Positions 34,049-36,428 of a DNA stretch of 37,136 nucleotides are shown here, one piece after another. A program made the translations under genes and the position numbers. Where the stretch lies: assembly GCA_017471465.1 (NCBI GenBank), contig JAFUTI010000026.1:1-37136 (forward strand), in the 5' to 3' direction. Position 1 is the stretch's first letter. Every line of letters begins with the position of its first letter. Under the pieces are notes generated by a model, which saw only the letters and a program-made list of their open reading frames with translations, did not search any database and was not told the origin of the DNA. Source of the DNA: Prevotella sp. Lineage in GTDB: Bacteria; Bacteroidota; Bacteroidia; Bacteroidales; Bacteroidaceae.

Positions 34049-34082
34049 ACATACTTTTTTAACTAACAATTTAAAAAGCCGT

Positions 34083-34124
34083 CACGGCGACACCCTCACG
34101 GGCTGGCCGTGCAGCCGTTTTTTT
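34083..34124 (-). terminator. Stem-loop downstream of the small protein gene (hairpin A)
   Basis: CACGGC/GCCGTG (34083-34088, 34106-34111), an internal loop of 4 and 3, CCC/GGG, and the same four-base loop as hairpin B. T-tracts are present on both strands (T7 plus side, T5 minus side), so it can end minus transcription coming from the small protein gene, 21 bases after its stop. Confidence 0.65.
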
Positions 34125-34144
34125 ATCTCATTGAGTCGATGGTC

Positions 34145-34321
34145 TTAGAGATCCCAGACGGTGCCGCCACCCAACATGCGGATGAGTGCATCGCCGCCGT
34201 CGCCGCCGTCGCCGTCAGTGCCGAGGTCTTCGTTGAAACCTTCTACGGATGCGGCAATCATCTGTGCCATCTGCACCTTCACAATCGTTGTCTCAGGATT
34301 CTGATATATCTTCTTTTTCAT
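34145..34321 (-). CDS. 58-residue small protein with Gly/Asp-rich tail
   Basis: ATG 34321 to stop 34145, minus strand, 58 residues. It begins MKKKIYQNPETTIVKVQMAQ, continues through IAASVEGF, then an acidic Gly/Asp stretch (GTDGDGGDGGD, about 36-46) and ends LIRMLGGGTVWDL. A clear Shine-Dalgarno-like AAAGGAG lies about nine bases ahead, uncommon in this phylum. It follows the CTD protein by 43 bases and is followed by hairpin A. The MKKxYxxPxxxVxx...(A)GS-type opening resembles a widespread group of short Bacteroidales proteins of unknown function, as far as I recall. It has no signal peptide or helix. No maturation gene is next to it, so a RiPP precursor role is only a possibility. Confidence 0.78.
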   Translation of the reverse strand: MKKKIYQNPETTIVKVQMAQMIAASVEGFNEDLGTDGDGGDGGDALIRMLGGGTVWDL

Positions 34322-34364
34322 TGTTCTGTTCTCCTTTTTTTAATATGAAAGTAAAATAATCATT

Positions 34365-36428
34365 TTATTTGATGGCAATTTTCTTACCATTCACGATGTA
34401 GAGACCCTTCGTGGGCTCGCTGACGCGCTGACCCTTCAGGTTGTAGACCTCACTCTTCACTTTTATCTCTTCACTCTTCACTGACTCGATGCCCGTTGCC
34501 TCGTCGGCGAACGTCACGTCGAGGTTGCGAGCCGTCGTAGCGTTGGCTACCTTCAGGTAAGCCTTGCCGGCAGCAATCTCACCGCCCGTCACAGGTACGA
34601 ACTGAGCTTTCTCGCCCACCTTCTTCAGCATGTAGAGCGTATTGTCAGCGTAGGCGTCGAAGGCCGTAGCGTCGGTAGCCGAACCGAGCAGGTCGCCCTT
34701 AGCAGTCTCTGAACTGGCAGCAACATTGATTTGATAAAATGAAGGTCCGTCACCCTTCAGCACCACGCCGGTATTGGCAGGCACATTGTCAACCTTCGTC
34801 AGCGTCACCTTGCCGTCAGCAACAGCAGCCGTGTAAGCCGTAATACCAGGCTGTGTTGTGAAGTCAAGCGCATACGGTGTGTAGAGCGTTGCCCAGCCGG
34901 CGTCAGACATGTTTACTTCAATGGAGGTAGGCAACTTCTTAATGATGATGTAGTCAAAGTCCTCAGACTGGTTGGTCTTGCTATCGCTAGAGTTAGCTCC
35001 ATTGATTACCAAGGAAGTTGTTGCATTCAACGTGAAGTTGGCAGAACGTAATCCCTGAGTGGCTGCGTCATTCTTGTCTGTTGTCAGAATTACAATGGGA
35101 TCTGTTGCATCATCATTATTGCGAATACCAAGTCCTCGACCATTACGAGCAGTAAAATAGGTGATAAATTCGTAGTTTCCAGCGTTCAACTCAATCAAGC
35201 CAATGCCACGAAGGGTTGAGCCGCCACGGGCATTCTGTGCGCTGACATTACTGTTAGCTCCATTGGTATACGTATAGGTTGTTCCTTCTGTAGCTTGGTC
35301 GTAGAAATAGACCACATCATTGTCTACTGTGCTGTAAGATACAGACTTAGTGATAGTCTGACCGTCAGTAAATGTGCCTCCTTCACCAAAAGTTTCACTG
35401 TTATCTGCCTTGTAATACACATCTCCGCCCTTTACATACAGCGGATATGCATAGCTCCAGCTGCATACCTTGGTATCGGTCTCAGTTAATGTCTTTACGA
35501 CAGGGGTCTGTTCTTCATCGCCAATGGTAGTTTTTATTGTAAGTGTTGCTGTATAAGGTGCACGAACGGGAACATTCAATACATTTGTTCCATCAACAAG
35601 AGTCATCGAAGGAGCTTCTTCAGCAGTAATCAAATAATGCTTGTCTGCGAAATCGCCCTCACCGTCAATGGCAGTCTCTGCGGTAATCAGTGCATCTACA
35701 GAGCTAGAAGAGCTAACTGTTTTAACAACATCATCACCCAGTTTGTAGTTAATGGTATAGTTAGCTATGGTAACCGTCTGTTCGGCTTGGGAAACAGTAA
35801 TGGTCTGCAAGCCGTTTGGATAAGCCCAATTGGAGGTGCCACCGCCGCGTTGTAATCCAAAAGTCACGCTGTTGAAAGCACCCTCCAACGCACCAGAAAC
35901 ATTTGATGTGATATCTTTTCCACGGAAAGTAAAGTTCTCCACTGTTTTTGTTGCAGTGTTGAAGATAATAGTGATGTTAGAGCTGCCAGGAGTCTTTAAT
36001 TGATCGGTCAAGTCCACTGTCATATCGCAGGCTCCGGTTAGGCTCAAATAAAAATGATAATTTGAGTTGTAGCCAATTATAACTTTGTCACCAAACTTAA
36101 TGTACTCGTAATTGCTGGTACGACCGGTTGAATTGCCTGTGTACCAGGTTACTTCGTACTTAACTTTCGCATTCTTAGCAATCGAAAAAGATTTCGTTGC
36201 AGAATATGCAGCGCTAGGCTTTGTGGTGTTAAAATACAATCCATAATTTTCGTCAATTGTGAGGTTAGTATCCCCACCCCATTCTGTCAGGTCATCTTCT
36301 GTCCATGCACTTACTGCTGCACGCGTGTAAACAGGTTCATAGACATCGTCTGCCCACGCACTACTTGCTCCGCCCAGCAAAGCTGCGACGAGGAGCACTC
36401 TCATTGAATTGAGTAGTTTCTTTTTCAT
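34365..36428 (-). CDS. Large secreted protein with T9SS-type C-terminal tail
   Basis: A 687-residue exported protein: signal peptide (residues 1-26, ending SSAWAD), a beta-rich region of several possible Ig- or lectin-like domains (I recognise none firmly), a segment MSDAGWATLYTPYALDF near residues 515-531, and a C-terminal sorting-type tail (661-687: VYNLKGQRV...GLYIVNGKKIAIK) like those of T9SS-exported Bacteroidetes proteins. The linker before it (VKSEEIKVKSE, 650-660) is encoded by a repeat. Probably a cell-surface or secreted protein, plausibly a substrate of the machine encoded at 13-19 kb. A putative structured leader of about 300 bases precedes it. Confidence 0.85.
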   Translation of the reverse strand: MKKKLLNSMRVLLVAALLGGASSAWADDVYEPVYTRAAVSAWTEDDLTEWGGDTNLTIDENYGLYFNTTKPSAAYSATKSFSIAKNAKVKYEVTWYTGNSTGRTSNYEYIKFGDKVIIGYNSNYHFYLSLTGACDMTVDLTDQLKTPGSSNITIIFNTATKTVENFTFRGKDITSNVSGALEGAFNSVTFGLQRGGGTSNWAYPNGLQTITVSQAEQTVTIANYTINYKLGDDVVKTVSSSSSVDALITAETAIDGEGDFADKHYLITAEEAPSMTLVDGTNVLNVPVRAPYTATLTIKTTIGDEEQTPVVKTLTETDTKVCSWSYAYPLYVKGGDVYYKADNSETFGEGGTFTDGQTITKSVSYSTVDNDVVYFYDQATEGTTYTYTNGANSNVSAQNARGGSTLRGIGLIELNAGNYEFITYFTARNGRGLGIRNNDDATDPIVILTTDKNDAATQGLRSANFTLNATTSLVINGANSSDSKTNQSEDFDYIIIKKLPTSIEVNMSDAGWATLYTPYALDFTTQPGITAYTAAVADGKVTLTKVDNVPANTGVVLKGDGPSFYQINVAASSETAKGDLLGSATDATAFDAYADNTLYMLKKVGEKAQFVPVTGGEIAAGKAYLKVANATTARNLDVTFADEATGIESVKSEEIKVKSEVYNLKGQRVSEPTKGLYIVNGKKIAIK

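Follow-up and report, generated by a model that had tools for sequence, protein, structure and literature searches.

Lasso peptide systems combine a leader carrying a YxxP motif with an RRE (B1), a protease (B2) and a cyclase (C). In systems of the SynChlorMet type, to use the NCBIfam names, an HprK-like ScmC is accompanied by the PqqD-like ScmD and the radical-SAM proteins ScmE/F. Linear polyphosphorylated peptides (LPPs), comprising LppA together with LppB/K/S/N/D, were described in 2026 from Bacillota (PMC13381572). According to that report, LPPs are restricted to Bacillota, the leader is brought to the peptidase by the RRE, the kinase phosphorylates Ser3 of the core, for which neither Thr nor Tyr can stand in, and LppS has a reported Ser-His-Asp triad (PMC13381572); the string 'bacteroid' has 0 occurrences in its main text. 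Among the matches listed in the open-licence PMC literature, we recognised no report of the family described below or of LPP-type peptides in Bacteroidota.

We analysed a stretch of 37,136 nucleotides (the window) from a Prevotella metagenome-assembled genome (MAG) that is 63% complete. The window encodes a 58-residue peptide, MKKKIYQNPETTIVKVQMAQMIAASVEGFNEDLGTDGDGGDGGDALIRMLGGGTVWDL, which belongs to a large and overlooked family of small genes in Prevotella-type bacteria. With LPPs the family shares an N-terminal YxxPx(h) head (V, L, I, F or A at the last position in LPP), a variable C terminus and a fixed downstream Ser; the RRE loci inspected in the same bacteria share with LPP loci a stand-alone RRE, an HprK-like kinase and, except beside the RRE of the window's own MAG, a signal-peptidase-like, putative Ser-His-Asp protease, and genes similar to the NTP transferase and ABC exporter of LPP were seen with them in two g27 genomes (PMC13381572). 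The surface context is often a capsule locus in LPP and an exported-protein gene in the Prevotella family. The two differ in phylum (Bacillota against Bacteroidota), in layout (one to three precursors per cluster against precursors dispersed outside the cassette), in the end of the leader (FETxxS against [LIM][AC]xS, with FET absent) and in the Tyr-Ser spacing (18 against mostly 19-20) (PMC13381572). Because the precursor lies outside the cluster and has no FET motif, and because phosphorylation and cleavage are predictions, we call the family LPP-like and do not count it as a member of the LPPs.

We consider it probable that the peptide is the precursor of a linear LPP-like RiPP that is matured in trans by an RRE, a kinase and a protease and is made together with surface proteins. 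A family that had been overlooked would thereby gain a testable function. If true, LPP-type chemistry would reach a second phylum, with a dispersed-precursor gene layout, and would be linked to exported proteins, T9SS-type cargo among them.

The 58-residue peptide gene and its signals

The original prediction of an intact 58-codon gene with a ribosome-binding site held good; the gene lies on the minus strand, which had been left unstated, with its ATG at 34321, an intact frame and a Gly/Asp-rich tail (Table 1). It starts 43 nt past the end of a gene for a 687-residue protein whose start resembles a signal peptide, in agreement with the predicted position behind a secreted-type protein. The 46 nt on the 5' side of the ATG folded at only -0.8 kcal/mol, and this absence of a stable hairpin fits cotranscription of the two genes. 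The mdh gene is separate and lies 276 nt further downstream. A terminator had also been proposed after the peptide gene. Folding agreed with this, since the 85 nt on the 3' side of the stop codon reached -30.2 kcal/mol (z -3.2) and included a T run, whereas a simple pattern scan at the locus reported a terminator on the plus strand only and none on the minus strand. By eye, a similar hairpin also follows the orthologue of the gene in RUG200. A 79-residue antisense ORF (window 34109-34348, plus strand) overlaps the peptide gene and has no supporting evidence.

Table 1. Features of the peptide locus, in window coordinates
Feature	Position	Strand	Basis
YxxP-head, variable-tail peptide gene, 58 aa	34145..34321 (including stop)	minus	ORF list, profile, orthologue
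GGAG ribosome-binding site	34331..34334	minus	9 nt 5' of the ATG; GGAG also before orthologue L172
Probable terminator, hairpin and T run	34072..34116 (approximate ends)	minus	folding; resembles hairpin after L172
Partner gene, 687 aa, signal-peptide-like start, T9SS-type tail YNLKGQRVSEPTKGLYIVNGKKIAIK	34365..36428	minus	resemblance
Head, predicted leader, residues 1-22	34256..34321	minus	leader role by comparison with LPP; unfolded model
YxxP motif (Tyr6, Pro9), predicted RRE-binding element	34295..34306	minus	invariant in 50/50 rows; Thr at P+2
A23-A24-S25, predicted core start and predicted kinase target Ser	34247..34255	minus	Ser invariant in 50/50 rows
Predicted core, 36 residues, acidic	34148..34255	minus	pLDDT blocks 51-65

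The orthologue, from the Prevotellaceae MAG RUG200 (G255), had the same residue at 50 of 56 aligned positions. The two genes differed by 10 synonymous and 8 nonsynonymous changes, giving dS 0.349, dN 0.063 and an omega of 0.18, a ratio not near one, the value named in advance as evidence against the gene. Pooled over six orthologous pairs of the family, omega was 0.34 (0.21 for the head and 0.40 for the tail); single pairs varied, two being without synonymous change, one having an omega of 0.93 and one of 3.8, and in the divergent pairs the heads were alike and the tails had diverged. The value of 3.8, calculated on few sites, came from L019:3035 and L180, whose heads are identical and whose tails differ strongly, a possible case of tail diversification.

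A short frame with a low-complexity tail might arise by chance. This explanation has next to no probability here and is already contradicted by the omega of 0.18 and 29 further matches in the host MAG, which place the gene beyond chance, and by the ribosome-binding site and terminator also present at the orthologue. The 58-residue peptide gene is confirmed as real.

A family with a conserved head and a variable acidic tail

Searches for homologues, which the original prediction had called for, were productive. Searched with the single protein, the host MAG yielded 17 matches at E<=10; a 16-row profile gave 30 at E<0.01, that is, 29 besides the peptide gene, of which one is broken by an in-frame stop. 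A 50-row profile matched 145 of 199 genomes of the same family, probably the Bacteroidaceae of GTDB, and 18 of 22 genera, the richest genome (G127, of the host's genus) having 39 matches, while the narrower 16-row profile had 0 matches in 24 genomes from 24 other families of the order. Many of the members fetched from G127 (L197-L224) belong to an NYSAPxC...NETxxLMxxS subfamily placed before lipoprotein genes. Pfam, NCBIfam and PHROG profiles gave chance-level matches only with the peptide and 50 members. Two of these were to lasso models, and it was they that prompted the idea of an RRE.

The consensus reads M-K-K-x-Y-x-x-P, alternating hydrophobics, [LIM]-[AC]-x-S and a variable tail, so that the MKKxYxxPxxxV opening with a variable acidic tail, anticipated as a family trait, was borne out by the profile members. 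Over 50 rows the Tyr, Pro and Ser columns were invariant (50/50 each). The conservation persisted in a set of 162 members, obtained by removing 5 of 167 re-extracted ORFs that had no motif and still holding at least one non-member and two mis-anchored rows: the Tyr of YxxP was found in 158, a hydrophobic residue at P+2 in 81% (Thr in the window's peptide), and a Ser at Y+19/+20 in 153, Thr replacing it in three. In 120 of those 153, A or C stood two residues before the Ser. Tails were net negative in 98% of the 162 members, and Cys occurred in 2% of tails. AlphaFold2 gave no fold for the 58-residue peptide (pTM 0.21); the head was without secondary structure, at a pLDDT of 85-87 over residues 1-20.

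Several known identities were set aside. By eye, the peptide has neither a signal peptide nor a T9SS tail, and identity as a signal peptide or lipoprotein was rejected on the absence of a hydrophobic core and of a lipobox Cys. The heads have no GG motif, against a GG-leader RiPP with PCAT export (PMC10352776). The likeness to lasso peptides extends to the YxxP leader motif and to an RRE of B1 fold; the family differs in that its heads show no invariant Thr where the leader would end, and B2 (PF13471) was over cut-off in 3 of 199 genomes (in 11 with the limit at E<=1e-3) and in none of the contigs of the 63%-complete host MAG, so a lasso peptide was rejected.

Small size, dispersed genes and variable tails would also suit an unmodified regulatory or signalling peptide co-expressed with adhesins. 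We think this very unlikely, as it leaves unexplained the RRE motif, the invariant Ser and the co-occurrence with an RRE reported below.

A stand-alone RRE accompanied by a kinase and a peptidase

A YxxP-type RRE was detected in 181 of the 199 family genomes, in a single copy in most, and a stand-alone one is present in the host MAG. It has the fold of lasso B1. An RRE profile searched against the PDB found LppB, which a single RRE sequence had missed; VIA-align rows for the RRE did not include LppB, an absence not counted as evidence. Single-sequence PDB searches with the peptidase and the kinase gave no useful match.

We inspected 27 RRE loci from 26 genomes (G164 twice), a non-random sample of the 20 best-scoring loci and 7 chosen genomes. 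An HprK-like kinase was found in 27/27, including the host MAG, with a profile whose 12 motif-picked seeds came from the same RRE loci. A signal-peptidase-like protein was found in 26/27, likewise with a profile built from motif-picked seeds in those 27 loci, and 25 of the 26 genomes had both kinase and peptidase with the RRE. The 19 peptidase seeds had been picked by GxSM, and every one of them retains HR and GDGN as well, motifs that by sequence match a putative Ser-His-Asp triad as in LppS. Curated matches for both proteins were below cut-offs. With a kinase and a peptidase adjoining it in nearly all loci inspected, this widespread RRE gains candidate substrates in the peptide family. In the two g27 genomes the cassette is followed by an NTP transferase and an ABC exporter, Pfam-confirmed in L286 and represented by genes of similar size in L290; these were not seen adjoining the RRE in most other loci, which are short. 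With them the set corresponds to LppB, LppK, LppS, LppN and LppD of the LPPs, whose exporter is MsbA-like. A member of the peptide family lay near 1 of the 27 loci, 20 of which span only about 3 kb. A WxxP ORF in L269 was rejected as a cluster-borne precursor; it is an in-frame stretch of the kinase gene.

The RRE and the peptide family co-occur across genomes, and 40 RRE-positive genomes had no family match. At a threshold of 1e-3 the link was significant in g35 (p 0.026) and not significant in g27 (0.55), g30, g37, g39 or the Sov-positive genomes (0.38); at 1e-10, a threshold chosen after seeing the data, p was 0.003 in g27 and g35. These values are optimistic because the genomes are related.

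In the host MAG, the only RRE detected (G000:C34; L284:759-8680) is clustered with an HprK-related kinase, an ABC exporter, three radical-SAM genes, one of them with SPASM, and another large ORF, and no peptidase lies beside it. The cluster is a candidate peptide-modification cluster and has the protein classes of the SynChlorMet type; it differs in that its matches are weak, below curated cut-offs, and in that no convincing precursor was seen in it. Four loci from the host's genus (L267, L272, L285 and L291) hold the full cassette core, so the host may have a peptidase gene that the incomplete MAG lacks, or a radical-SAM variant may be used. The host cluster, together with a g35 locus (L282, G198) in which RRE and signal-peptidase-like genes are flanked by two genes that are radical-SAM-like by motif, would suit an RRE-dependent RiPP of another chemistry, modified by radical-SAM enzymes instead of being phosphorylated and cut as in LPP. 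This we regard as rather unlikely, given the kinase and peptidase in 25/26 genomes, the scarcity of Cys in the tails, the invariant Ser, which suits a Ser kinase, and the 12 displayed RRE loci, where no radical-SAM neighbour was found on the RRE strand within about 1.5 kb each way.

In the LPP-like reading that we favour, the head (about M1-I22) would act as the leader and the core would begin at A23. The Tyr6/Pro9 motif is predicted to dock as an extra strand on the stand-alone PqqD-like RRE encoded elsewhere in the genome. The RRE would present the peptide to the HprK-like kinase, which would place a phosphate on the invariant Ser25, and to the signal-peptidase-like Ser-His-Asp protease, which would cut off the leader near A23-x-S25 and free a short acidic core that may then be exported. 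The functional options of the original prediction were partly supported overall, and a modified peptide is the best supported among them.

Pairing with exported-protein genes

The recurrent siting beside proteins with a C-terminal secretion tail that had been forecast was found in the host MAG, where a gene with a T9SS-type tail ends 2-84 nt ahead of 25 of the 30 members, against 0.24 expected at random positions (400-nt limit). The window's partner and 24 other host genes end in a T9SS-like tail; the peptide itself does not. The assignment of the tail, including that predicted for the window's partner, stands by resemblance and was not matched by models: the 687-residue protein had no Pfam or NCBIfam match at E<=10, and 0 of the 25 partner tails matched the curated Por-secretion tail model at E<=1. 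We take this model to be TIGR04183. A tail profile searched against the PDB gave an endo-arabinanase and a beta-helix protein as best matches; solved T9SS signal domains were not among them. Behind a further tail gene of the host MAG there was a 26th, divergent peptide. Among the other five members, three precede a lipoprotein gene by 13-49 nt, and one follows apparent ABC-2 permease genes. The remaining one is a degenerate copy with an in-frame TAA (G000:C27:73521-73601), situated at the start of a lipoprotein gene and shortly past an intact copy.

The pairing extends to relatives. At 13 loci from MAGs whose titles give Prevotella, Prevotellaceae or Bacteroidales and mostly point to ruminant stomachs, a tail gene lay upstream in 10 by pattern and in 12 by eye. 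At 141 further loci, 74 members followed a tail gene only, 50 preceded a lipoprotein gene only, 1 had both and 14 had neither, some of these being mis-picked ORFs, and 2 were not re-found; the lipobox pattern used is loose, matching 27 of 165 background ORFs. Genomes positive for the T9SS translocon Sov/SprA (TIGR04189) carried the family in 121 of 136 cases, against 24 of 63 negative genomes (p 2.8e-13), with a mean of 6.6 copies against 1.2. In five Sov-negative genomes with 28 loci, 0 members followed a tail gene and 21 preceded a lipoprotein gene.

The partners themselves are diverse. Pfam matches over cut-off were obtained for 7 of the 20 tail genes scanned out of the 25 (the window's own was scanned apart and was unmatched), among them two rhamnogalacturonan lyases, a C10 peptidase, a leucine-rich-repeat protein and a beta-helix protein, and for 4 of 20 lipoprotein-side neighbours (GLUG, beta helix, Mfa-like, LRR). 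The peptides of C21 and C38 are nearly identical and their passengers are unrelated. In Mantel tests on 24 pairs, peptide tails showed no significant correlation with passengers (r 0.11, p 0.11), heads correlated with the tail domain next to them (r 0.46, p 0.001), and whole peptides correlated more weakly with passengers (r 0.33, p 0.001; 0.21 once the tail domain was taken into account). The latter two correlations could result from linkage and from whole pairs being duplicated.

An immunity-type factor, or an antitoxin for the adjoining secreted protein, had been among the proposed functions. Operon adjacency suits such a role, and so would the correlation of whole peptides with passengers, which could also come from duplicated pairs; it found no support in Pfam-matched partners that are enzymes and adhesin-type proteins, in the tail-passenger comparison or in the C21/C38 pair, and we rate it highly improbable.

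The tight pairing with exported proteins, the association of the family with T9SS and the two significant correlations would agree with an export escort, in which a small protein stays unmodified in the cytosol and assists its operon partner in reaching the surface. We nevertheless think an escort quite unlikely. The partners belong to two export classes, the peptide is modelled without a fold, and only 1 of 21 high-scoring unpaired tail genes inspected (71 unpaired in all) had a divergent peptide gene behind it, in a ranking that is biased by a tail profile (A2) built on the 25 paired genes themselves; the correlations, moreover, can be explained by linkage and pair duplication. The related proposal of a chaperone-like partner of the tail protein is weakened by the many members that precede lipoprotein genes and by the near-identical peptides with unrelated passengers.

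In the LPP-like reading, the scattered precursors would each share a transcript with an exported protein, lying downstream of T9SS-type cargo or upstream of a lipoprotein that may itself reach the surface, and peptide and surface protein would thereby be produced together. The step from a modified peptide to a surface function is speculation drawn solely from the pairing. We put forward tentatively, and with considerable doubt, that one near-universal cassette matures tens of genome-wide peptides, each co-expressed with its own surface protein, and that this amounts to a peptide decoration of the cell surface, on T9SS cargo and surface lipoproteins, with the peptide perhaps attached to or displayed beside its partner.

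Two arrangements of partner genes were also seen. In the host MAG, two pairs of tail gene and peptide gene stand in tandem (G000:C3; L011:2611-8152), and one of them has a different gap sequence in RUG200, which suggests exchange between paralogues. At L020:5109-6257 and L091:5553-6728, the two family partners are alike, one having a sub-threshold cohesin match, and each adjoins a larger protein ending in a stretch that by eye is dockerin-like.
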